Assembly (NCBI GenBank): GCA_024398055.1
Contig: CP073749.1
Span: forward strand, 744,001 to 808,000
DNA from: a bacterium SCSIO 12741
GTDB lineage: Bacteria; Bacteroidota; Bacteroidia; Flavobacteriales_G; Salibacteraceae
Direction: 5' to 3'
Length of the DNA stretch: 64,000 nt
Shown one piece after another: positions 3 through 12,004 of the stretch. A program made the position numbers and the translations under genes. The notes beneath the pieces are model-generated. The model was not told where the DNA came from and made no database searches. It saw only the letters and a program-made list of their open reading frames with translations. Each line of letters starts with the position of its first letter. Within the stretch, counting starts at the first letter, position 1.

Positions 3-1031
3 GCCATGATGGAAAAAGAAGTGGTTGAAAAAAGAAAGTGGATGAGCCATGAACACTTTCTGGATTTGATGGGAGCTACCAATTTGATTCCCGGACCCAA
101 TTCCACAGAAATGACCATGCATTGCGGTCATGAAAAAGCGGGTTGGCCTGGATTGATCGTAGCCGGATTTTGTTTCATCTTTCCAGCCGTAACGATTACC
201 CTGATCTTTGCTTGGCTCTATGGTGAATATGGAGAGCTGCCAGCTGTGGAGCCCTTCATTTACGGAATCAAGCCCGCCGTCATCGCCATTATTCTTTCGG
301 CAGTATATCGACTGGGCAAAAAGGCCTTAAAATCTACTCAGCTCTATCTACTGGGCGGGTTAACTCTGGTGGTCTGTTTACTTGGGGTCAATGAAATTGC
401 GGCCTTGTTTGGTTGTGGCCTTTTAGGAGTTCTGATCTTTTTGGCTCGGCAGAAAAGTGACAAAGTCGTAGGTATTTTCCCTATTGCTTTAGTGTCCGTC
501 GGTCAAATTGGAAGTCTCTCCGTTTTCTGGACCTTTCTGAAGGTGGGCGCTCTTTTGTACGGAAGTGGCTATGTACTTTTCGCTTACCTGGATGCTGAAT
601 TAGTCTCTCAAGGTTGGTTAACCCGACAACAGCTCATCGACTCGGTGGCTGTAGGCCAGTTTACCCCAGGGCCCGTTCTTTCTACTGCCACTTTTATTGG
701 TTACCAGCTCAATGGATTTACTGGTGCTCTGGCCGCTACCCTTGGAATATTCCTTCCCTCCTTTGTATTTGTAGCCATGCTCAATCCACTTATCAAAAAG
801 ATGCGCCAGCTTAAATGGCTATCCGCTTTTCTGGATGCCGTCAACGCAGCTGCTGTGGCCGTCATTGTGGCCGTTTGCATCGAGATGGGAAAAGAAACCC
901 TCACCGATTGGCGCACCATTGCTATCGCCTTAGTAAGTGCCGGTGTAGTATTTGGCTACAAAAAATTGAACAGTGCCTTCGTTGTTTTGGGTGGGGCTCT
1001 ATTGGGCTGGGGACTTTCTTTTATCGGGTAA
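3..1031 (+). CDS. chrA: Chromate transporter, CHR family (5' end outside window)
   Basis: Inner-membrane permease of the CHR superfamily; characterised members export chromate or related anions. The frame is open to the left edge (an Ala codon at 3-5 precedes the first Met), so the N-terminal few dozen residues are missing. Both CHR halves can be seen: PGPN at visible residues 29-32 and FTPGPV near 220, each followed by a Gly-rich segment and long hydrophobic helices. The visible 341 residues plus the missing part fit the bidomain form of about 390-400 aa. It ends 163 bp before the multicopper oxidase gene, which has its own promoter. Family assignment is firm; the true substrate is not shown by sequence. 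Confidence 0.9.
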   Translation, partial: AMMEKEVVEKRKWMSHEHFLDLMGATNLIPGPNSTEMTMHCGHEKAGWPGLIVAGFCFIFPAVTITLIFAWLYGEYGELPAVEPFIYGIKPAVIAIILSAVYRLGKKALKSTQLYLLGGLTLVVCLLGVNEIAALFGCGLLGVLIFLARQKSDKVVGIFPIALVSVGQIGSLSVFWTFLKVGALLYGSGYVLFAYLDAELVSQGWLTRQQLIDSVAVGQFTPGPVLSTATFIGYQLNGFTGALAATLGIFLPSFVFVAMLNPLIKKMRQLKWLSAFLDAVNAAAVAVIVAVCIEMGKETLTDWRTIAIALVSAGVVFGYKKLNSAFVVLGGALLGWGLSFIG

Positions 1032-1194: not shown

Positions 1195-3072
1195 ATGAAA
1201 AACAGTTATTTATCCATTCGGGCATTACTCACAATCATGTTCTGCTTCTTGCTCCTCGGATCCTTTGCCCAATCTCAGAAGTATCAAAATCTTATTCAGG
1301 CCCCTACTCTGATTGACGGGGCAAATGGGACCATCGAAATCGAAGCCCGAAAACACACTACCCATAAATTTAATCCGGCCGATACCTCGGATCACATGCT
1401 TAATGGGACTTCTAATCAAAACGGAATCGAAACCTGGTGTTTTAACCCCAAGGGCGATACAACCATTACTTACTTAGGGCCTACCTTGGTTTGGCACACC
1501 GGTCAAATGACCAACATTCATGTGACCAATAAACTGCCTCAATCTACCACGGCTCACTGGCATGGTGCTGAAGTTCCGGCCAAATGGGACGGCGGGCCTC
1601 ATCAACCCATTCACACAGACTCTACCTGGAAACCCAGCTTTGTAGACCTAGACAGTGCAGCTACCATGTGGTATCACCCACACATTCACGACAACACCTA
1701 CCCTCAGGTGCAGTTTGGCATGTCAGGATTGATCATTTCAAAACAGGCCAGTGATCCTATTGGACCAACTTTACCCAGGACCTACGGTGTGGACGACTAC
1801 CCCTTAGTTTTGGGTGACCAGGGTTTTATTGAGGATACCAGCAACAACACCTGGCATGTGGATACCAACAAAGCCAAACGTCCCTATGGATTGGTCAATG
1901 GACTGGCTTATCCGGTTGTAGAATTACCGGCCCATTTAGTCCGTCTGAGAATACTTAATGGATCCACGCGTAAAGGATTTCAAGTCGCCTTTTCGGATTC
2001 CTTTAGCAGTACCCAAATGTCAGATATGATTGACTTTACACTGATCGCAACGGATGGTGGATATGTCATGAAACCCGACACCTTTAAGACGATGCTTACC
2101 GGACCCGGAGAACGTATTGAGGTTTTATTGGATTTGAAAGGCTACCAGGCAGGTGATTCCCTTTGGTTAAGAAATATGAACATGTGGATGGACACTTCCA
2201 TTATCGGGAGTACTCGCCAAGGGAGCAGTGATCCAACCAAATTTTCACTTAACCTAAAAATCAAAATTATTGCTGATCCTCCGGGATATACTCCAGTGGA
2301 CAACTTCTCCACCTTCACCACTGATTGGGATCCAGGCCTCAAGGATACCATAGGGGTTTCAAGATGGCGTAAAAAAGACTTTGTAGGCCAGAAAAAGAAA
2401 TACGGTGGCAATGGATTTACCATCAACGGTGTCACCTACAAAATGGACTCCATCAACGATACCGTTTGTGTGGGAGCCAAGGAAATCTGGGAGATTCACA
2501 ACAAAACCACTGTATCCCACCCCTTCCACATTCACAAAATCTTTTTCCGGGTATTGAGTGTAGACTCCATGGGCACCTCCATTGATTTGGCGGAACGCGG
2601 ACTTAACGGTCCTAAGGATGATGTACTGATCCATCCGAACTGGAAAATGCGTTTCCTGGCCAAGTTTGATGACTATCCAAACAAAATCACTCACCATCTT
2701 GCCTACATGTACCATTGCCACATCCTCACCCATGAAGACAAAGAAGGCGGAGGAATGATGGCTCAATTCGTCGTTACCGATCAGGGACACTGTGCAGAAC
2801 CCGATAATGTTCCAGAAGTAAAACCTATGCGAACGATGACTTTATTTCCAAACCCTGCTAGAAACCAGTTTTACCTTGAGGGAGCGAGCAAGGAACGGAG
2901 TACTCTAAAAATTTATGATCTCAATGGGCGTTTGATCACCCAAAAAAGTTTGCCCGCGTTTAGTGGTGCAATTTCGATAGGTACTGAGCAATTGAATGCC
3001 GGTTACTATCTCATTGAATGGGATACGGCCGAAGGCTTGGCTACCGAAAAGCTGCTGATGATTGAAGAATAG
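1195..3072 (+). CDS. Multicopper oxidase with T9SS sorting domain
   Basis: Secreted multicopper oxidase of the CotA/bilirubin oxidase/CueO fold, oxidising a phenol or metal substrate and reducing O2 to water. Signal peptide at residues 1-25 (ends SFA). Copper ligands are visible in order: HWHG at 121-124, HPHIH at 161-165, HPFHIH at 442-447 and the H-C-H-x3-H block at 507-513. In relatives the axial Met lies five residues after the last His; here a Lys-Glu-Gly-rich insertion puts Met-Met at 521-522. The last ~80 residues, from LFPNP near 550, are a type IX secretion sorting domain, so the enzyme is probably exported and anchored on the cell surface. A terminator follows, so it is a single-gene unit upstream of MbnP/MbnH-like genes. 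The substrate is unknown. Confidence 0.9.
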   Translation: MKNSYLSIRALLTIMFCFLLLGSFAQSQKYQNLIQAPTLIDGANGTIEIEARKHTTHKFNPADTSDHMLNGTSNQNGIETWCFNPKGDTTITYLGPTLVWHTGQMTNIHVTNKLPQSTTAHWHGAEVPAKWDGGPHQPIHTDSTWKPSFVDLDSAATMWYHPHIHDNTYPQVQFGMSGLIISKQASDPIGPTLPRTYGVDDYPLVLGDQGFIEDTSNNTWHVDTNKAKRPYGLVNGLAYPVVELPAHLVRLRILNGSTRKGFQVAFSDSFSSTQMSDMIDFTLIATDGGYVMKPDTFKTMLTGPGERIEVLLDLKGYQAGDSLWLRNMNMWMDTSIIGSTRQGSSDPTKFSLNLKIKIIADPPGYTPVDNFSTFTTDWDPGLKDTIGVSRWRKKDFVGQKKKYGGNGFTINGVTYKMDSINDTVCVGAKEIWEIHNKTTVSHPFHIHKIFFRVLSVDSMGTSIDLAERGLNGPKDDVLIHPNWKMRFLAKFDDYPNKITHHLAYMYHCHILTHEDKEGGGMMAQFVVTDQGHCAEPDNVPEVKPMRTMTLFPNPARNQFYLEGASKERSTLKIYDLNGRLITQKSLPAFSGAISIGTEQLNAGYYLIEWDTAEGLATEKLLMIEE

Positions 3073-3095
3073 AACTCTATTTTAATCAATAGCCG

Positions 3096-3123
3096 AAAAG
3101 CCCGGAAATTCCGGGCTTTTTTT
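3096..3123 (+). terminator. Rho-independent terminator after the multicopper oxidase
   Basis: Ten-base-pair stem AAAAGCCCGG / CCGGGCTTTT with a 5-nt loop, running into a T tract. It lies 24 bp after the stop codon. Confidence 0.85.
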
Positions 3124-3174
3124 ATGGCCAATACCCCCATTTTCCATGAATTTTAAATTTCGGGTGGATTTCGC

Positions 3175-3182
3175 TATTTTTG
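3175..3182 (+). promoter_or_regulatory. -7 promoter element overlapping the HYC_CC_PP-like start
   Basis: TATTTTTG matches TAnnTTTG. It overlaps the annotated TTG start of the next ORF, so transcription would begin around 3187, close to the in-frame GTG at 3186. No clear TTG lies about 20 bp upstream. Confidence 0.35.
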
Positions 3183-3485
3183 AATGTGCTTAAAACCAGA
3201 GTCATCCGTATTGCTTCTTGGGCATTGTCCATCTACTTTGTTCTAATTTCTCTTGGAGCAGCCTTGGATGTTCATTTTTGTCAGTCCAAGGTGAAAAGCT
3301 TTGCCTTTTACGGAGAGGCCGAGGCCTGTTGTAAAATGGACCCAGCTCTTTCCCCGAAGGCAAACCCGGAAAAAGAACAGGTTTCAAGAGCAAGGTGTTG
3401 CCACAATAAACAAGCACACCTGATTAATGATTTTGAATATCATAGTCAATTGAATTGGGAGCTTCCCCCTTGCAGGTGGAAATAA
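3180..3485 (+). CDS. Small Cys-rich membrane protein, HYC_CC_PP-like
   Basis: A 101-residue protein with one N-terminal hydrophobic segment (residues ~12-30), then a His-x-Cys motif (VHFC), two Cys-Cys pairs (EACC, RCC) and a final PPC. This order matches the HYC_CC_PP family, small Bacteroidota proteins often found beside heavy-metal genes; their biochemical role is not established. The Cys and His residues would lie outside the inner membrane and could bind a thiophilic metal (inference). The start is uncertain: TTG at 3180 sits inside a promoter-like element and GTG at 3186 is an alternative. It lies between the multicopper oxidase and the MbnP-like gene, which supports a metal-linked role. 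Confidence 0.7.
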   Translation: MNVLKTRVIRIASWALSIYFVLISLGAALDVHFCQSKVKSFAFYGEAEACCKMDPALSPKANPEKEQVSRARCCHNKQAHLINDFEYHSQLNWELPPCRWK

Positions 3486-3676
3486 CTCCTATTCTGAATT
3501 TAACGTTACAATCCACTTTTTGCCCTTCTCCACTTTGGAGTTCGGGCAATTCCCCTCCTTGGCTTTTGGATAGACTTCTATCCCGGATCCAGGTTTTTCT
3601 TCTTTAGGAATATCTACCATCAACCAAAACCACCCTCTGCTGCGGCAACCTTATTAAATTCCAAACAAGAAGAATT

Positions 3677-4648
3677 ATGAAAAAAATACTATTTACACTT
3701 ATTTCTCTGGCCTCCTTTTCGGCCTTTGCACAAACTCAAGTCAACTTTGAGTTTCATCACTTTTTGGGAGACGATCCCTTTGCCATCGATCAATCGGCAA
3801 CTACGGCTGCAAACTATGAATTGAACTTCAATCGCCTCGAATTTTACGTGGCCGAAATAGATCTGGTGCACGACGGCGGTCAGGTTACCCGGGTTAAAGA
3901 CATCTACCTTTTAGAAAATGTAAAATCTCGCCAGATTCACAATCTCGGGAGTTTTCCAGTGACTGATCTGGAAGAAGTACGATTTTACATCGGAGTGGAT
4001 TCTGTTGCCAATCACGACGACCCTTTGAAGTATTCTATTGACCACCCCTTGGCTCCTAAAAACCCGTCTATGCATTGGGGATGGAGTTCGGGTTATCGCT
4101 TTGTTGTGATGGAAGGAAAAACCGGTGCTGGTCTATCTCAGATTTATGAGATCCATGCTTTGGGTGATGCCAATTATCACCAAATCGTTATTCCGATGGA
4201 TCGCTCTGCAGAGAATGGAACCTTATCCATCGATGTTGCAGCGGATTATTTGAAAGCGTTTAAAACCGTGGATGTTTCTTCAGGTAAGATTTTACATAGC
4301 AATTTTGGAGAGGCCATTCCTTTTCTAAGGGATTTTGCCGATAACGTTTTCTCCGCATATTCAGCACCGATTACTGGATTGGAGGAAAATCAAGCTGAAA
4401 ACAAAATGGTAGTATACCCTAATCCTGGTAAAAGTGGTGAATCTTCCATTCGCTGGGAGCAGCCTCTTACTTCTACTGTTCAGATTCAGCTACAAGACGC
4501 CTCTGGGCGAATGATTTCAACGCAGATTATCGAGTCTGGAAGTACCGGAATGAATCTTCCTGAGGTAGGTTCTGGTGTCTACTTTATTTCTGTCATTCAA
4601 GAAGGCAAGCCCCTTCAGGTTCAGCGCTGGGTAGTATCTAACGAGTAA
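3677..4648 (+). CDS. MbnP-like copper-binding protein with T9SS sorting domain
   Basis: Secreted 323-residue protein. Signal peptide 1-18 (SAFA then Gln), an MbnP-like beta-sandwich over ~20-225, and a T9SS sorting domain from YPNPG near residue 248 to the end. The family hallmark MHWGW is at residues 132-136, followed by GYRFVVMEG. In characterised MbnP, a Trp is oxidised to kynurenine by the di-haem partner MbnH and helps bind copper; W134 and W136 are the candidates here (inference). The MbnH-like gene starts 13 bp after the stop, so the pair is probably cotranscribed. The C-terminal T9SS domain is unusual for this family as I know it and points to surface display rather than a free periplasmic protein. 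Confidence 0.82.
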   Translation: MKKILFTLISLASFSAFAQTQVNFEFHHFLGDDPFAIDQSATTAANYELNFNRLEFYVAEIDLVHDGGQVTRVKDIYLLENVKSRQIHNLGSFPVTDLEEVRFYIGVDSVANHDDPLKYSIDHPLAPKNPSMHWGWSSGYRFVVMEGKTGAGLSQIYEIHALGDANYHQIVIPMDRSAENGTLSIDVAADYLKAFKTVDVSSGKILHSNFGEAIPFLRDFADNVFSAYSAPITGLEENQAENKMVVYPNPGKSGESSIRWEQPLTSTVQIQLQDASGRMISTQIIESGSTGMNLPEVGSGVYFISVIQEGKPLQVQRWVVSNE

Positions 4649-4661
4649 TCCCGTATTAATC

Positions 4662-5705
4662 ATGCGAAGGCAAGTCATGTATTTGCTTTCAGGATTGTTG
4701 CTGACTCTATTGTTGGGTGCATCCGGATTGCCATCGAACGAAGAAAAAGCCTTTCGGCCCAAACTTCCCATCGGTTTTCCTCCCGTATCCTATCCCGAAG
4801 ACAACGCACACACTCCTGAAAGATGGAAACTGGGAAGACGGTTGTTTTATGATCCTGTCTTGTCCAGAGATAGTTCCATTAGCTGTGGATCCTGTCACCA
4901 TGCGGGCCATGCCTTTAGCGATACCGTTGCACTCAGCCCAGGTGTTGAATCAGCACCTGGCGTGAGAAACGCTCCCACATTAACCAATGTAGCTTATCAC
5001 CCCTACTTTACCCGAGATGGTGGTGTAAAAACTTTAGAAACCCAAATTCTGGTTCCTATTCAGGAACACAACGAGTTCGACTTCAACATTGTGCTCATCG
5101 CAGAACGGTTGTACCGCGATTCTACTTATCAAAGAATGAGTAAACTGGCTTACAATCGCAATCCTGATCCTTATGTTATTTCCCGTGCTATTGCTTGTTT
5201 TGAACGAACCCTGGTCAGTGGAAATAGTCGCTACGATCAATTTCTTCTGAGTGGAAATTCCTCCTTACTTTCTCGGTCTGAACGCAGAGGAATGGAGTTG
5301 TTTTTCTCAGAACGTACCCAGTGTTCAAGTTGCCATAGCGGATTCAACTTTACTTCCTACGAAATCACGAATAATGGTCTCTATCTGCACTACGCCGATA
5401 GTGGACGAAAAAGGCTCACTAACCTGGAGTCAGACCGGGCAACATTTAAGGTACCTACGCTGAGAAACGTAGCCTTAACTGCTCCCTACATGCACGATGG
5501 TTCAATGCCTGACCTCGAATCAGTGGTCGCTCATTATTCAGCAGGAGGAAAAAATCACCCGAATCGTCATCCGCTGATTCGCCCCTTGGATCTGAGCCCA
5601 AAAGAACAACAGGATTTGGTTTCCTTTTTAAGGACCCTTACGGACGAGGAGTTTGTGAATAATCCCCATTTCACGAATCCCTTTACCGCTCTAAATCAAG
5701 ATTAA
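4662..5705 (+). CDS. Di-haem cytochrome c peroxidase / MbnH-like enzyme
   Basis: Periplasmic di-haem protein of the bacterial cytochrome c peroxidase/MauG/MbnH superfamily. N-terminal signal sequence ~1-25, then two c-type haem sites, CGSCH at 75-79 and CSSCH at 221-225, and the conserved MHDG near 277. These enzymes use H2O2 either to take electrons from a small donor (CcpA) or to oxidise a protein side chain (MauG, MbnH). Its position immediately after an MbnP-like gene favours the MbnH role, modifying a Trp of that protein, but the peroxidase role cannot be excluded from sequence. A second di-haem gene starts 2 bp after its stop, so 3677-6823 reads as one operon. Confidence 0.88.
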   Translation: MRRQVMYLLSGLLLTLLLGASGLPSNEEKAFRPKLPIGFPPVSYPEDNAHTPERWKLGRRLFYDPVLSRDSSISCGSCHHAGHAFSDTVALSPGVESAPGVRNAPTLTNVAYHPYFTRDGGVKTLETQILVPIQEHNEFDFNIVLIAERLYRDSTYQRMSKLAYNRNPDPYVISRAIACFERTLVSGNSRYDQFLLSGNSSLLSRSERRGMELFFSERTQCSSCHSGFNFTSYEITNNGLYLHYADSGRKRLTNLESDRATFKVPTLRNVALTAPYMHDGSMPDLESVVAHYSAGGKNHPNRHPLIRPLDLSPKEQQDLVSFLRTLTDEEFVNNPHFTNPFTALNQD

Positions 5706-5707
5706 AA

Positions 5708-6823
5708 ATGAAACTCACATCTTATATAAAACTCGGCCTTCTCCCCTTGCTTGCCGCGGTAGTTATCGCGTCGTGTAAAAAGGACGAACCGGAAACCGAA
5801 ACCGTAACCGAGGTAAAATGGGACACCACAGCCTATGTGCTGAACTATGGAAGCTTTCCTGATCCCCAAATTCCAGCAGATAATTCTTTGACTAAGGCTA
5901 AGGTTTACCTGGGCAGGTTATTGTTTTTCGACAAAAGATTGTCTAACGACCTTACCCTTTCCTGTGCCTCTTGCCACAAACAAGAGGACGCCTTTTCCGA
6001 CATCCGAAAATTTAGCGTGGGAACCGCTGGACTGGAAGGTGGACGACAAGCCATGGCCGTTTTTAATCTGGCCTGGCATAAGAATGGCTTCTTTTGGGAT
6101 GGACGAGCTCCACGGCTTCGCGACCAGGCTTTACTTCCGATTCAGGATCCTCTGGAAATGAATGAAACCCTGGCCAATGTAGTTGCCAAAGTTTCTTCGG
6201 TTAAAACCTACCAGGATCAGTTCAAAAGGGCCTTTGGAAGCGAGGAAGTAACTTCCGAAAAAATCAGTCTTGCCTTGGAGCAATACATGTTTACCCTGGT
6301 TTCCATGAATAGCAAATACGATCAATACCTGGCAGGATCAGCCACACTGACCGATAGCGAAGAAAGAGGCCGTAAATTGTTCTTTGATGAGTTCAATCAA
6401 TTCTTTCCGGATCAATCCGGAGCCGATTGTGCCCATTGCCACTCCGGCCCCAATTTCACCAACGACCAATTCATGAACAACGGCCTCGACAGCGACGCTG
6501 AGTTTGTGGATTTGGGATTGGAAAAGGTAACCGGACTGGCTAGTGATCGTGCGAAGTTCAAAGTTCCTTCTCTCCGCAATATCGATCTCACCCCTCCCTA
6601 CATGCATGACGGACGGTTTGCCACCCTCGAGCAGGCTGTAGATCATTATAACAGTGGAGTCAAACAATCGTCAACTTTGGATGGTGGAATTCAAAATACC
6701 ATTGCCACCGGACTTATGCTCAGTCCACAGGACAAAGCTGATCTCGTGGCTTTTATGAAAACACTAACGGATCAGGAGTTTATTTCGAAATCGGAATACA
6801 GCGATCCTAACAATCCTTTATAA
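5708..6823 (+). CDS. Di-haem cytochrome c peroxidase lipoprotein
   Basis: Second di-haem peroxidase-type protein, 371 aa, with a lipoprotein signal: hydrophobic segment ending VIASC, Cys23 as the lipidation site. Haem sites are CASCH at 86-90 and CAHCH at 241-245, with MHDG before the C-terminal helices. It shares the whole fold with the preceding gene (similar flanks such as DAFSD after the first haem and FTN after the second) but is clearly diverged. It could be a peroxidase protecting the periplasm or a second MbnH-like maturase. It is the last gene of the operon and is followed by a terminator hairpin. Confidence 0.88.
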   Translation: MKLTSYIKLGLLPLLAAVVIASCKKDEPETETVTEVKWDTTAYVLNYGSFPDPQIPADNSLTKAKVYLGRLLFFDKRLSNDLTLSCASCHKQEDAFSDIRKFSVGTAGLEGGRQAMAVFNLAWHKNGFFWDGRAPRLRDQALLPIQDPLEMNETLANVVAKVSSVKTYQDQFKRAFGSEEVTSEKISLALEQYMFTLVSMNSKYDQYLAGSATLTDSEERGRKLFFDEFNQFFPDQSGADCAHCHSGPNFTNDQFMNNGLDSDAEFVDLGLEKVTGLASDRAKFKVPSLRNIDLTPPYMHDGRFATLEQAVDHYNSGVKQSSTLDGGIQNTIATGLMLSPQDKADLVAFMKTLTDQEFISKSEYSDPNNPL

Positions 6824-6832
6824 CCTCCTTGG

Positions 6833-6866
6833 AAAGGGTTCTCAGAAATGGGAACCTTTTCTTTTT
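6833..6866 (+). terminator. Terminator after the di-haem operon
   Basis: Nine-pair stem AAAGGGTTC / GAACCTTTT with one G-T wobble and a 10-nt loop, followed by CTTTTT. It starts 10 bp after the stop of the second peroxidase gene. Confidence 0.65.
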
Positions 6867-7038: not shown

Positions 7039-9450
7039 ATGGTACGCGAAGGGGTCAGGAAACTTCCCCATTCCTTCCGATGGGGAAAACCAATTAACGT
7101 ATGTACTCAGCTTCTTGTGTTTGGAATGCTTTGCTTTGGATCTATTGAGGGAAGCAGCCAAACCACTATCTGGAGTGTAGATTTTGAAACAGGTTATAGC
7201 GATAATGACGCTTCAGCCCAGGACAATAATTCGCCTTCCGGAGCAGATTGGACCAAAAGTGGATCTCCTTCTAACTGGTGGCGTGTTGAAAGCGACAACG
7301 TATTAGCTGGATCACTTTCGATGAGTGGCAGAAACACCGATGCTACCATGACCTGGACTTCAGAATCCATTGATATTTCCGGCTTTTCTAACGTATCCAT
7401 TTCCATCGACATCAAAGAAATTAACTGCGACGATGGTTCCTCTGACCAAATAGAAACTTTCTACAACGTGGGTTCCGGCAATGTGGAATTTGGCGATGGC
7501 AACGGAGACGGTAATTTTAACAATGCCACCAATACCATTGCGGGTCTTTCCGGAAGTTCACTTACGATCACAGTCACCCTCTTCAACAATGGCGGTGGCG
7601 AACGCTGCATTTTCGACAACATTGTAGTCACTGGAGTATCAGAATTGGGTGGTGATGGCCCAGGTGGTGTAGGCGATACAGATGGGAGCGGAAGTTTGAG
7701 CTTATGGTTGGATGCCAATCAAGGGGTAAGTTTAAGTGGAAGCGCTGTAACCCAGTGGAGCGATCAATCCGGTTATGGAAACAACGCTACCCCTCCCGCC
7801 AGTGCCAATAGGCCTTCCTATTCGAGTAGTGCCGTAAATTCTCATCCCTCTATCACCTTTGATGGTAGCAATGACTATTTAACCGCTTCGGATGCCACCA
7901 GCCTGGATTTGACCACCTGGACGATTATTGTGGTAGGAATTGTCAATACCCATAAGAATTACAATGCCTTTGTGGTGAAGGGAGACGATGCGGATGAGAA
8001 CTACGAATTCCTCACCAACTTTCCTTCTACAGGAAACTTCCACTATCCTGTCAAGTACACCACCTCAGCCAGGAGCACAGATTCCGAATCCGGCGAAACC
8101 ATGTCTACCTCGAGCTATGGGGTTTACCAATTGGATTATGATCAGAGCAATTTTCAGTTTTACATCAATGGAGACTTAACCGAAACCGATTCCGAAACCC
8201 GAACGCCACAAACCAATTCTAACAGCCTATACATCTGTAACGAAGAGAGCACGACCGGCAGAAATGCCAATGCCTCTGTAGCCGAAATCATCATTTTTAG
8301 CACTCCCATAAACCAGATTCAACGCCTGCTTATTCACAATGCTATGGCCGCCAAGTATGGGTTTAGTATGGATGCAAACGACCTCTACGATGAAGACAAC
8401 AGCGGCTATGATTTTGATGTGGCCGGGATTGGTCAAGCCAGTGATGGAACGAGTCATCAGGATGGTCAGGGAACCGGCATTGTAAGAGTCAGAAACCCAT
8501 CGGGGTTGGCCAATGGAGAGTATTTCATTTGGGGGCACGATAATGGCGAATTGGATTCTGACGCAGAAACGGATCTCCCGACCGGAATTGAAGCCCGAAT
8601 TGTGCGCACCTGGAGAGCGAGTGAAACCGGTGAAGTGGGAACCTTAACTATATCCTTCGATTTGTCCAGCGTGCCGGGAACCAAAACCACTTCTGACCTT
8701 CGATTACTTATCGACAGGGACAATGACGGCGTTTTTAGTGATGAAACAGAAGGAGGCGGTGGAGTGGTATCTGGAGCAAGCAATACCAGTGGCAGCATCT
8801 ATGAATGGACCGGAATCGATATTGACAACAACGAGCGATTTACCATCGGAACGATTAACTATTCTCAAACCCCACTCCCCATAGAGCTGACCCATTTTCA
8901 AGCTCAGGCTATTCCCGAAGAGGAGGTCATTCGATTGAACTGGGTAACCCAATCCGAAATCAACAACAGTCACTTCATTCTGGAAAAAACAGAAGGAGAT
9001 GGAGAGTTTGCCAGGGTTGGAGAAATTACAGGGCAAGGAACCACATCGGAATCGCACACCTACGAATTCTATGACTACGAACCCTGGACCGGAACGACCT
9101 ACTACCGTCTGACTCAAGTGGATGAAGATGGAAAACAAGCCCACTATCCCTTAGAGGCCGTGGATTATGAATTACCAACGCCTGAAGTGCTTACAGCATT
9201 CCCCAATCCCCTGTCTGCTGGAGAGCGCTTACATATTCAATTTTCTACCCTCGATCATCCAGACCTTCTGGAAATCAAAATTCATGACCAAGCTGGTAAA
9301 GTGGTAGACCTGAGTCAGGACCCTTCCCTGCAACTCAATCCGGGTGAGTTGTCCATTAATCTCCCGTCAAATTTACCTTCAGGCGTTTATGTTACCACCC
9401 TAATTACCGCCCAGCAATATGTGCATTACATCCCCTTGGTCGTTCGATAG
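7039..9450 (+). CDS. LamG-domain secreted surface protein with T9SS tag (paralog 1)
   Basis: 803-residue secreted protein. After an N-terminal hydrophobic export segment (~residues 28-48) comes a jelly-roll-like region (TTIWSVDFETG ... CIFDNIVVTG), then a LamG/concanavalin-type lectin domain starting LSLWLDANQG, ~220-440, a region with FDVAGIGQ and WGHDN, and a C-terminal T9SS sorting domain from FPNPLS near 720. Such architectures are common in gliding Bacteroidota adhesins; no catalytic motif is seen. It is a tandem paralog of the next gene, nearly identical at the start and strongly similar at the end, with a different central LamG region. Ligand unknown. The ATG at 7039 is the first start giving an export signal. 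Confidence 0.8.
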   Translation: MVREGVRKLPHSFRWGKPINVCTQLLVFGMLCFGSIEGSSQTTIWSVDFETGYSDNDASAQDNNSPSGADWTKSGSPSNWWRVESDNVLAGSLSMSGRNTDATMTWTSESIDISGFSNVSISIDIKEINCDDGSSDQIETFYNVGSGNVEFGDGNGDGNFNNATNTIAGLSGSSLTITVTLFNNGGGERCIFDNIVVTGVSELGGDGPGGVGDTDGSGSLSLWLDANQGVSLSGSAVTQWSDQSGYGNNATPPASANRPSYSSSAVNSHPSITFDGSNDYLTASDATSLDLTTWTIIVVGIVNTHKNYNAFVVKGDDADENYEFLTNFPSTGNFHYPVKYTTSARSTDSESGETMSTSSYGVYQLDYDQSNFQFYINGDLTETDSETRTPQTNSNSLYICNEESTTGRNANASVAEIIIFSTPINQIQRLLIHNAMAAKYGFSMDANDLYDEDNSGYDFDVAGIGQASDGTSHQDGQGTGIVRVRNPSGLANGEYFIWGHDNGELDSDAETDLPTGIEARIVRTWRASETGEVGTLTISFDLSSVPGTKTTSDLRLLIDRDNDGVFSDETEGGGGVVSGASNTSGSIYEWTGIDIDNNERFTIGTINYSQTPLPIELTHFQAQAIPEEEVIRLNWVTQSEINNSHFILEKTEGDGEFARVGEITGQGTTSESHTYEFYDYEPWTGTTYYRLTQVDEDGKQAHYPLEAVDYELPTPEVLTAFPNPLSAGERLHIQFSTLDHPDLLEIKIHDQAGKVVDLSQDPSLQLNPGELSINLPSNLPSGVYVTTLITAQQYVHYIPLVVR

Positions 9451-9616: not shown

Positions 9617-12004
9617 ATGAGTAATGCAGCAAATCCATTGGGTTTTTGGCGATCGCCTTTAACTTGGTTGATCGCAATCGGTTTTTTAGCCATGCCCTGC
9701 ACTTCCCTGTACAGTCAAACTACCATTTGGAGCGTAAATTTTGAAACAGGCTACAGCGACAATGACGCCTCAGCCCAGGATAACAATTCCCCTGCAGGTG
9801 CGGATTGGACCAAAAGTGGATCTCCTTCCAACTGGTGGCGTGTAGAAAGCGACAACGCCATATCTGGATCGTTATCGATGAGTGGACGAAATACGGATGC
9901 AACCATGACCTGGACATCCGAATCCATTGACATCTCTGGCTATTCTAACGTATCTATTTCCATTGACCTCGCTGAGGTAAACTGTGACGATGGTTCTTCC
10001 GACCAGATTGAAACCTTTTACAATGTGGGATCTGGAAATGTTGAGTTTGGCGACGGGAATGGGGATGGAAATTTCAATTCAGCAACCAATACCATTGCCG
10101 CCCTTTCCGGGAGTTCATTAACCATTACGGTTACCCTGTTTAACAACGGAGGTGGTGAGCGGTGCATCTTTGACAATATTGTGGTTACCGGAACTGCTTC
10201 CTTGGGCCCTGATGGTCCTGGTGGCGTCGGAAGCACAGATGGAAGTGATGCCCTGGAAGTTTGGTTAAAAGCAGATGACCTGGATGCAGATGGTGATCAA
10301 AGCGACAACCCTTCCAACGGATCCAATGTCTCTACCTGGACCGATCACAGCGGAAATGGAAACAACTACACCAATACAGGGTCAAACCGCCCAACCTACA
10401 GCACAAGTGGAACCTACAATGCGGTAAACTTCAACGCATCAGCCGGAACGGCTCAATACCTAAATGGAGCGTCCTCGGGTTCCTACTCAGATGGGAGCGC
10501 CTTTTTTGCGCACAACACCACCAATGTTAGTGCCAGTCACCTAACTTTTGACAACGGGTCTTACTCTCTTCGCACCGAGCAATGGTCCAATTCTGGAGTG
10601 GTTGGTTTCACCCGATATGGCGTGGCCGACTACACGACTTCCATAAGCAGCCCATTTGGAAGCAATTCCATTTATTCCTTTCACAAGGATGGAAGCTCTT
10701 CCAATATGGACATTCGGGTTAATGACGATACAGAAACCCTGGCCATAGGTTCTTCAGCCGCAGGAATCCCCTACGATCGATTAGGAAAAAACAGCACCAC
10801 AACCGATGAAGCCAGTGGTGACTTTTTTGAGGTTATTCTGTTTAGTCAAGACTTGAATGAAATGCAGATCATACTCATTGACAATTACCTCAGCGCCAAG
10901 TATGGTGGTATCGACATTCCAACAGACATTTACGATGGAGACAACGTGGCGAATGGTAATTTCGATTTTGATGTAGCGGGAATCGGCCAGGCCAGCGATG
11001 GCTCCAACCATTTGGATGCTCAAGGAACGGGGGTTGTTCGGGTTCGAAACGCAAGTAATTTGGGAAATGGTGAATTCTTCGTTTGGGGGCATGACAACAC
11101 TACCTTCAATGCGGACTCTGAAACAGATCTACCCACTGGAATTGAAGCCCGGATTGAACGTACCTGGCGCGTATCCGAAACGGGTGAAGTAGGCACGGTA
11201 ACCCTTTCATTTGACCTAACCGATGTACCAGGCTCAGTCACCACCTCGGACCTAAGATTGCTCATAGATACTGACGGTGACGGCTTTTTTAATGACGAAA
11301 CAGTAGGAACCGGAGGGGTAATTTCAGGAGCTTCCAATACCAGCGGAAACATTTACGAATGGACGGGCATTGATATCGATGATGCTGAGCACTTTACCAT
11401 TGGATCTATTAACATTACCCAGACTCCACTTCCTGTTGAGCTCACCAGCTTCAAAGCCTTATTGGATCAGGAAAACGAATGGGTAGAACTCATCTGGATT
11501 ACTCAAACCGAGATTAACAACGACTATTTTACCCTGGAAAAAACAACTGGCGATGGTGAGTTTACCTGGGTCGGAGAAATTCAGGGACAAGGAACCCACA
11601 ATGGTCAATACGAATACACCTTTATCGACGAAGAGCCCTGGACAGGTATCAGCTATTACCGGTTGACACAAGTAGATGAAGACGGAAAGGAAACGCATTA
11701 TCCCCTGGAGGCGGTTAACTACGAACTACCCACTCCAAAAATCTTGACCGCCTTCCCTAATCCATTAGCCGCTGGAGAGGAATTGACTATTCAGTTCTCC
11801 GGATCTGATTATCCCCAAATAAGGAGCCTTGTACTTCATGATCAGTCGGGAAGGGCAATAGATTTGTCGCATGACCCTTCTCTTCAGGTGGAACCCGGAG
11901 AAGTGTCCTTTGTTCTACCCCACACCCTTCCTACGGGAATTTATGTCGCCACCATGGTCACCGACAACGAGTCTCCCCATTACCTTCCAGTGGTCGTTCG
12001 ATAA
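9617..12004 (+). CDS. LamG-domain secreted surface protein with T9SS tag (paralog 2)
   Basis: 795-residue tandem paralog of the preceding gene, 166 bp downstream. Signal segment ~15-33, then the shared block TTIWSVNFETG ... FDNIVVTG, almost residue-for-residue the same as in paralog 1. The central domain opens ALEVWLKADDLDADGDQ, a LamG variant with an Asp-rich insertion absent from paralog 1. The FDVAGIGQ and WGHDN region and the T9SS domain (FPNPLAAGE) are again closely matched. The pattern suggests a duplication whose central ligand-binding domain diverged or was exchanged while the flanks stayed alike. Probable cell-surface adhesin or carbohydrate-binding protein; no enzyme motif seen. Confidence 0.8.
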   Translation: MSNAANPLGFWRSPLTWLIAIGFLAMPCTSLYSQTTIWSVNFETGYSDNDASAQDNNSPAGADWTKSGSPSNWWRVESDNAISGSLSMSGRNTDATMTWTSESIDISGYSNVSISIDLAEVNCDDGSSDQIETFYNVGSGNVEFGDGNGDGNFNSATNTIAALSGSSLTITVTLFNNGGGERCIFDNIVVTGTASLGPDGPGGVGSTDGSDALEVWLKADDLDADGDQSDNPSNGSNVSTWTDHSGNGNNYTNTGSNRPTYSTSGTYNAVNFNASAGTAQYLNGASSGSYSDGSAFFAHNTTNVSASHLTFDNGSYSLRTEQWSNSGVVGFTRYGVADYTTSISSPFGSNSIYSFHKDGSSSNMDIRVNDDTETLAIGSSAAGIPYDRLGKNSTTTDEASGDFFEVILFSQDLNEMQIILIDNYLSAKYGGIDIPTDIYDGDNVANGNFDFDVAGIGQASDGSNHLDAQGTGVVRVRNASNLGNGEFFVWGHDNTTFNADSETDLPTGIEARIERTWRVSETGEVGTVTLSFDLTDVPGSVTTSDLRLLIDTDGDGFFNDETVGTGGVISGASNTSGNIYEWTGIDIDDAEHFTIGSINITQTPLPVELTSFKALLDQENEWVELIWITQTEINNDYFTLEKTTGDGEFTWVGEIQGQGTHNGQYEYTFIDEEPWTGISYYRLTQVDEDGKETHYPLEAVNYELPTPKILTAFPNPLAAGEELTIQFSGSDYPQIRSLVLHDQSGRAIDLSHDPSLQVEPGEVSFVLPHTLPTGIYVATMVTDNESPHYLPVVVR

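Follow-up and report, generated by a model that had tools for sequence, protein, structure and literature searches.

A type IX secretion-tagged MbnP-family protein and a recurrent pair of di-haem enzymes as a candidate surface copper-binding module in Bacteroidota

The stretch of DNA analysed here, hereafter the window, comprises 64,000 nucleotides of bacterium SCSIO 12741 (Bacteroidota; Salibacteraceae; assembly GCA_024398055.1, contig CP073749.1, positions 744,001 to 808,000 of the forward strand), whose genome is a single contig of 5.1 Mb. It encodes a trio of adjacent genes, namely an MbnP-family protein with a C-terminal sorting domain of the type IX secretion system (T9SS) and two di-haem enzymes, here called alpha and beta. 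We consider it fairly probable that the trio is a surface copper-binding module in which the alpha/beta pair converts Trp134 of MbnP to kynurenine by oxidation, presumably through peroxide chemistry; the three genes would thus supply a surface-displayed copper-binding protein together with its maturation enzymes. Alpha, in which Arg replaces the Trp between the haems, would be the more constant partner, and beta, a predicted lipoprotein that keeps this Trp and often carries a signal resembling those for surface export, would be a second enzyme of many but not all genomes. An earlier note on this DNA had described the gene positions and order, the MHWGW motif and the intergenic gaps of 13 bp (MbnP to alpha) and 2 bp (alpha to beta), all of which agree with the list of open reading frames (ORFs); its observation is confirmed and its interpretation partly supported. 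The features of the trio are as follows.

3677..4648, + strand: T9SS-tagged MbnP-family protein, 323 amino acids (PF20243, E 1.7e-30); MHWGW is residues 132-136
4076..4078, + strand: codon of W134 of MbnP, the predicted kynurenine site, aligned with a Trp of 7l6g; W136 is encoded at 4082-4084
4154..4156, + strand: codon of H160 of MbnP, predicted copper ligand (conservation; 7l6g alignment)
4295..4297, + strand: codon of H207 of MbnP, predicted second copper ligand (conservation)
4412..4636, + strand: T9SS type A C-terminal sorting domain of MbnP, residues 246-320 (TIGR04183, 37.9 bits, cut-off 23)
4662..5705, + strand: di-haem enzyme alpha, 347 amino acids (CCP_MauG; CXXCH at 75 and 221; R118, E138, Y292; alpha clade)
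5013-5015, + strand: codon of R118, inter-haem position of alpha
5708..6823, + strand: di-haem enzyme beta, 371 amino acids (CCP_MauG; CXXCH at 86 and 241; W130, E150, Y314; beta clade)
5774-5788, + strand: codons of C23-K-K-D-E of beta, the predicted lipoprotein Cys and the residues after it
6095-6097, + strand: codon of W130, inter-haem position of beta

The MbnP-like identity and the T9SS tag, both first proposed in the earlier note, are borne out by Pfam, with PF20243 MbnP at 106.8 bits and Por_Secre_tail at 32.8 bits (cut-off 27 in either case); residues 1-18 are the likely signal peptide as judged by eye. An AlphaFold2 model of the mature protein, built with 81 relatives, reached a predicted local distance difference test (pLDDT) score of 93.9 and superposed on 7l6g, the MbnP of Methylosinus trichosporium, with a Z score of 17.2 and a root-mean-square deviation of 2.8 A over 201 residues at 19% identity. 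In Foldseek the same structure scored E 1.9e-7, and among the matches listed it was the sole clear-standing one to the MbnP domain. In the structural superposition search, the tail matched T9SS sorting domains, such as those of PorZ and of NucA in complex with T9SS components, among many FN3-like domains. When the tagged MbnP sequence was searched against solved structures, only T9SS tails and chance-level matches came up. In an alignment of 7l6g with a profile of tagged and untagged MbnPs (E 0.0013), W134 falls on the leading Trp of GMAWNWQAG and H160 on the His within WMVHVGSTG, so the Trp to which the earlier note had pointed does coincide with the first Trp of the WxW motif. Work by Manesis and others in 2021 is said to have found that this first Trp of MbnP becomes kynurenine and that copper is held by His and Met. 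Where the window protein has H207, the protein of M. trichosporium reportedly has Met.

Residue conservation was counted over 96 distinct MbnPs with the tag and 71 without it. Position 134 is Trp in 96/96 tagged and 69/71 untagged proteins, position 160 is His in 94/96 and 68/71, and at position 207 every one of the 96 tagged proteins has His, the untagged ones having His in 41 cases and Met in 25. H65 occurs in 94/96 tagged proteins and is not among the commonest residues there in the untagged ones; H28 is found in 88/96 tagged and only 17/71 untagged proteins. The conservation of residues 132-136 in the 80 named loci, which are the best 80 of 350 matches to the pattern MHWGW[ATS][SAN]G, is partly built in, because this was the search pattern; pattern-free tests come from the 71 untagged proteins and from 18 tagged MbnPs of relatives, which were found by Pfam and all contain MHWGW. 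One tagged MbnP of the phylum sample (locus L212) has MYWGW instead, and L207 encodes an MHWGW protein without a tail call; tail calls beyond the window were made by a custom rule. The two untagged MbnPs lacking W134 both lack a di-haem gene within 3.5 kb, as do 22 of the 69 that keep it; with n=2 proteins, a link between the two losses is not counted as evidence. An untagged subfamily with the motif WPxxMGGGYHF keeps W134 and has its second Trp replaced; eight of its loci (L074, L078, L081, L088, L091, L092, L100 and L121) each have a Trp-containing di-haem neighbour, and three (L086, L094 and L115) have none within 3.5 kb.

The histidines also permit an account without kynurenine, in which MbnP binds copper via H28, H65, H133, H160 and H207 and the di-haem proteins supply the electrons that reduce Cu(II) at the surface. 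The enrichment of H65 and H28 in tagged proteins, unlike untagged ones, would suit this account, as would the loss from alpha of the Trp that excerpts of PMC6405878 link to protein oxidation by MauG. However, W134 is kept family-wide, also in the untagged proteins, and both the fold and the first Trp of the motif coincide with those of MbnP, and we hold this account to be very unlikely.

Both partner enzymes belong to the CCP_MauG family of Pfam (158.6 bits for alpha and 192.9 for beta, cut-off 25.6). The MbnH equivalog TIGR04039 is the best NCBIfam model for either, TIGR03791 scoring lower in both cases, and the first PDB match of either is 6e1c, titled 'Di-heme enzyme', which we take to be MbnH. 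Active-site columns were located at the sequence level, from an alignment with 6e1c and the solved canonical enzymes, rather than from coordinates. At the inter-haem position beta has Trp in 64/64 cases and alpha in 0/64 (Arg 60, Thr 2, Ser 1, Lys 1); the pocket Glu is present in 64/64 of each, and Tyr stands at the column of the canonical axial Met in 64/64 alphas and 61/64 betas (3 gaps). The distal His of canonical peroxidases was found in 0/83 alphas and 0/77 betas (1 beta gapped). The two types form separate clades in a FastTree tree of 216 di-haem sequences (beta, 77 tips, support 1.0; alpha, 83 tips, support 0.972) and in an IQ-TREE tree of 98 (beta 99.7/100, alpha 93/99); supports quoted for alpha, beta and MbnH refer to the trees as built, before a re-rooting that moved some of the labels.

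Generic annotation would call the two genes canonical cytochrome c peroxidases, lying beside an unrelated secreted protein, and CCP_MauG is indeed one broad Pfam family. This reading is already contradicted by the tree, in which the five solved canonical enzymes together with one protein of the window's own genome form a group apart from alpha and beta (98.9/100), and by the residues, the distal His being absent and the axial Met replaced by Tyr; the tandem arrangement in 64/80 loci also speaks against it. Judged by their sequences, neither alpha nor beta groups with the canonical peroxidases, which we therefore rejected as a candidate identity and regard as hardly credible. The MbnH-like character suggested in the earlier note was upheld in this respect.

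The pairing of the two types is regular. At least two di-haem genes lie directly downstream of MbnP on the same strand in 64 of the 80 named loci, one does in 14 (4 at a contig end) and none in 2 (1 at a contig end); according to the record titles, 79 of these loci are from Bacteroidota groups, for example Saprospiraceae, Cryomorphaceae and Chitinophagales. Both gaps are below 100 bp in 64/64 two-enzyme loci, with medians of 4.5 and 0. Every distinct pair (64/64) consists of one alpha and one beta, in the order alpha-beta in 56 and reversed in 8. From these pair counts L157, L158 and L199 were taken out as repeats of L111, L105 and L084 in other order, and L108, L132, L150 and L188 were left out for a missing or short member. 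Three pairs outside the tree (L208, L209 and L210) likewise score as one alpha-like and one beta-like enzyme, with MbnP between them in L210. Two redundant MbnH copies, another candidate considered, are ruled out by this composition; the enzymes are of two fixed types.

Outside the named loci, a smaller share of tagged MbnPs has two enzymes. Among relatives, they were found at 7/18 tagged MbnPs (both downstream in 6, one on each side in L093) and no di-haem gene lay directly downstream at 4/18; in the phylum sample, in which the tagged profile had matches at E 1e-20 in 10/118 genomes (the window's own included; some matches weak), two enzymes occurred at 3/7 loci, besides a repeat of L196, the trio locus of Edaphocola flava. 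Two di-haem genes are common in the T9SS-tagged MbnP branch, and the view of the earlier note that two enzymes for one substrate would be unusual does not hold. The oddity is the fixed pairing of a Trp-less with a Trp-containing type and not the presence of two enzymes as such. Untagged MbnPs also have Trp-less partners of further kinds, with Lys, Arg, Phe, Met or another residue at the inter-haem position, and the untagged loci L076, L087 and L098 likewise have a Trp-less and Trp-containing di-haem pair.

To see which enzyme is the constant one, 25 distinct genomes were surveyed, chosen rather than random: those with one-enzyme loci, 11 others with a match to the tagged-MbnP profile, the window's genome and one more. 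Alpha was present in 25/25 and beta in 17/25, so that alpha occurs without beta in 8/25 and beta without alpha in 0/25. In the seven genomes with alpha-only loci, a true beta is encoded elsewhere in two (632 and 648 bits) and in none of the other five (best 395), and all six genomes with beta-only loci have an alpha or alpha-like match of at least 434 bits. Among the eleven further genomes eight have both types, and G141, G099 and G081 lack a true beta (best 392, against at least 486 for true betas).

Since alpha may stand without beta, one enzyme may suffice, and it is possible, although we lean against it, that only one of the two modifies MbnP; the other would be a peroxidase at the surface, clearing peroxide or recycling electrons, and would be retained in the operon for its protective effect under copper stress. 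Excerpts of PMC6405878 describe BthA, an enzyme without the inter-haem Trp, as turning over peroxide, which would be in keeping with such a role. On the other side, both enzymes lack the distal His of canonical peroxidases, and the invariable composition of one alpha and one beta, whose genes adjoin closely or overlap, suggests joint action.

Where the three products act is a related question. The window MbnP has a T9SS type A sorting domain above cut-off and the genome encodes SprA (2489 bits), and a surface location is predicted for it. T9SS substrates pass through the periplasm before they reach the surface. By a custom rule, beta is a predicted lipoprotein in 64/64 pairs and alpha in 54/64, the alpha of the window having no lipobox Cys. 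At least two acidic residues within positions +2 to +6 were counted in 50/64 betas and 18/64 alphas, and within the 54 pairs in which both are lipoproteins beta has more acidic residues in 30 and fewer in 4 (p 1.4e-5). Excerpts of PMC5080379 give C-X-K-(D/E)2 as the optimal surface signal of Capnocytophaga, which CKKDE of the window beta fits; this exact signal is seen in 18/64 betas and 4/64 alphas.

These observations suggest, at the level of predicted signals, beta outside and alpha inside, and would be compatible with a split by compartment, in which alpha acts in the periplasm before T9SS export and beta on the surface after it. The lipoprotein prediction for every beta, its greater acidity after the Cys and the contrast between the two window proteins favour such a split. 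However, the exact signal is confined to the minority of betas just given and is also found in some alphas, and, according to the same excerpts (PMC5080379), the signals of Bacteroides and Flavobacterium differ, and that of Capnocytophaga may not apply in this lineage. A clean division between periplasm and surface, one of the candidates tried, is weakened by the 54 alphas that are themselves predicted lipoproteins, and we find it rather doubtful. A still bolder version takes the Trp-less alpha, with Arg between its haems, as the core Trp-modifying enzyme of the surface copper protein branch and beta as a second-stage enzyme at the surface, with maturation split across two enzymes and both sides of the outer membrane; this we consider unlikely.

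The earlier note had seen a compartment problem in a protein destined for the surface after or without periplasmic maturation. The puzzle is softened by known systems: excerpts of PMC3912023 place CorA on the cell surface, with its partner CorB apparently mainly periplasmic, and SACCP on the surface with MopE. Surface kynurenine copper proteins therefore have a precedent.

The copper setting proposed in the earlier note is supported by the neighbourhoods. Around the MbnPs of the window and the named loci, ORFs of at least 80 amino acids within 4.5 kb were compared, MbnP and di-haem genes excluded, with profiles for HYC_CC_PP, HMBD, CusA, CusB, CopA, HMA, AraC-type, outer-membrane efflux and multicopper oxidase proteins. 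Matches were found for 97/447 ORFs (50/79 loci) near tagged MbnPs and for 5/492 ORFs (4/60 loci) near untagged MbnPs of relatives and the own genome (70 proteins, 5 from the window's genome), a comparison that favours the tagged side because the profiles were built from neighbours of tagged MbnPs. Near the tagged MbnPs of the same relatives, 19/105 ORFs in 9/15 loci matched. Pfam searches with cluster representatives agree (HMBD, ACR_tran, P-type ATPase with HMA, AraC helix-turn-helix, CusB-type, Cu-oxidase, HMA, OEP); HYC_CC_PP had no Pfam match there, nor did the AraC protein match HMA. The HYC_CC_PP neighbour cluster occurs in 38/81 loci, window included. At L085:7000-12500, and similarly at L107, L116 and L179, the surface copper cluster is larger than that of the window: close to the tagged MbnP, successive genes encode a T9SS-tagged protein, a cupredoxin-like protein and a T9SS-tagged multicopper oxidase.

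Several results weigh against the proposed module. The window MbnP falls below the cut-off of the equivalog TIGR04052 (44.5 of 140 bits), and both alpha (283.8) and beta (253.7) fall below that of TIGR04039 (362.85). Fold and sequence searches of MbnP gave no MopE or CorA entry among the matches listed, and the copper site is therefore argued from 7l6g alone. The copper-gene rate is still raised at 5 kb or more from tagged MbnPs (27/249 ORFs), so that the proximity is not sharply limited to the trio. The two trees conflict on the placement of MbnH, which IQ-TREE places with the Trp-less enzymes (85.5/79) and FastTree on the beta side (0.444). According to excerpts of PMC6405878, MauG needs the inter-haem Trp that is missing from alpha. 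The case for alpha as the core enzyme depends on differences in bit score and on genomes that were deliberately selected; in G015 the alpha-like enzyme, which is Trp-less, joins alpha with low support (60.2/49), and for the remotest alphas, L211 of G099 and L212 of G081, the assignment was made by position and profile preference.

The closest known counterpart is MbnP/MbnH of Methylosinus trichosporium OB3b, with which the trio shares the MbnP fold, the WxW motif, the His at the position of H160 and a di-haem partner of the MauG superfamily which, as 6e1c, has Tyr at the axial-Met column and no distal His. The window differs in its T9SS tail, in having two partners and not one, in an alpha without the inter-haem Trp and in a copper-efflux neighbourhood, where M. 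trichosporium has methanobactin genes. Excerpts of PMC3912023, PMC3423442 and PMC3621798 describe MopE/SACCP of Methylococcus capsulatus and CorA/CorB of Methylomicrobium album as surface copper proteins with a kynurenine and two His, each beside one di-haem protein. The window trio is predicted to resemble them in all these respects except that it has two di-haem partners; the methanotroph proteins are copper-repressed, and no T9SS tail is mentioned for MopE or CorA in these excerpts.

Among single enzymes, BthA of Burkholderia has its inter-haem Trp replaced (Ser257) and a second haem with Tyr-His ligation, and forms a bis-Fe(IV) state all the same (PMC6405878, excerpts). Alpha resembles it in lacking this Trp and in a predicted Tyr-His ligated second haem; however, those excerpts describe BthA for peroxide turnover and not for a protein substrate, whereas alpha adjoins MbnP and usually a Trp-containing paralogue. 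MauG, by the same source, has a Tyr-His ligated second haem and oxidises Trp residues of its protein partner at a distance, for which the inter-haem Trp is needed. Alpha and beta share the Tyr at the canonical axial-Met column, MauG itself being absent from the alignment, but alpha lacks the equivalent of Trp93 of MauG. No T9SS-tagged MbnP came up in searches of the open-access literature; subscription papers were outside the search, so absence from print is not claimed.

Further features border the trio.

1195..3072, + strand: T9SS-tagged multicopper oxidase, CueO-like (Pfam Cu-oxidase_2/_3 and Por_Secre_tail above cut-offs; T9SS tail)
about 3095-3121, + strand: terminator-like hairpin and T run at the boundary of the oxidase and the downstream genes (found by eye; fold -18.4 kcal/mol)
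3180..3485, + strand: HYC_CC_PP family protein, Cys/His-rich, TTG start as called (NF047658, 37 bits, cut-off 28)
6831..6862, + strand: terminator-like hairpin 3' of the MbnP-alpha-beta unit (14-pair stem then T run; -19.1 kcal/mol)

The best NCBIfam model for the oxidase is NF008205 CueO (246.8 bits, below the cut-off of 525). The earlier note had linked this oxidase with MbnP, and it does lie upstream, but the hairpin at about 3095-3121 stands between them; the oxidase is therefore probably outside the MbnP operon and on a separate transcript. A single operon of oxidase and MbnP was rejected on account of this hairpin and of the oxidase cluster occurring in 5/81 loci, window included. For the hairpin itself, the scanner gave only another, overlapping site on the - strand, and terminator-like sites as a class are not enriched in the window (7 against 6.8 in shuffles). 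Promoter-like sites in the window showed no excess either (10 against 9.7), and an Rfam scan of the window gave no family. The HYC_CC_PP gene between the oxidase and MbnP was absent from the earlier note. Directly upstream of the oxidase gene, window positions 6-1031 encode a chromate efflux transporter (TIGR00937, 279.7 bits); downstream of the trio, 7039-9450 and 9617-12004 are tandem paralogues of about 800 amino acids each with very similar N-terminal regions, the first with a LamG-like domain and a T9SS-like tail slightly below the Pfam cut-off.

Elsewhere in the own genome, a cluster at 612240-621605 reads AraC-type, HMA, HYC, CusA, CusC, CusB and HYC (labels by profile), the two HYC_CC_PP copies being above cut-off. 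After it comes a gene whose product is related (36.7% identity) to a T9SS-tagged protein that adjoins tagged MbnPs elsewhere. In this locus (L216, G000:C1:612240-622500) the two HYC_CC_PP genes flank the CusABC-like genes, so that HYC_CC_PP tracks copper genes here. The genome has six MbnPs in four loci. Besides the window, L007 has one MbnP with one Trp-containing di-haem enzyme, and L008:5914-9739 (own genome 5084913-5088738) has three tandem MbnPs of the MHWGW, MGWSW and MGWPW types followed by a single di-haem gene whose product is Trp-less, with Phe at the inter-haem position; its ratio of substrates to enzymes is the reverse of that of the window. L009:7270-8139 (own genome, about 2.1 Mb) holds a degenerate MbnP in which W134, H160 and H207 are all lost and beside which no di-haem gene lies; a TonB-type receptor lies about 4 kb away and an HYC_CC_PP-like gene, below the model cut-off, about 7 kb away.

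If the proposed chemistry holds, kynurenine copper sites would extend to T9SS surface proteins of Bacteroidota that are linked with copper efflux, and two di-haem paralogues would be fixedly paired with one substrate. Work on MauG holds the inter-haem Trp to be needed for long-range protein oxidation, and BthA reaches a bis-Fe(IV) state without it (PMC6405878, excerpts). As every pair examined here holds one Trp-less enzyme, the role of this residue becomes testable: alpha is a natural line without the inter-haem Trp that keeps the other active-site residues checked and is sometimes the sole partner beside MbnP (8/25 chosen genomes), and it would allow one to test directly whether modification of a protein substrate depends on this Trp.

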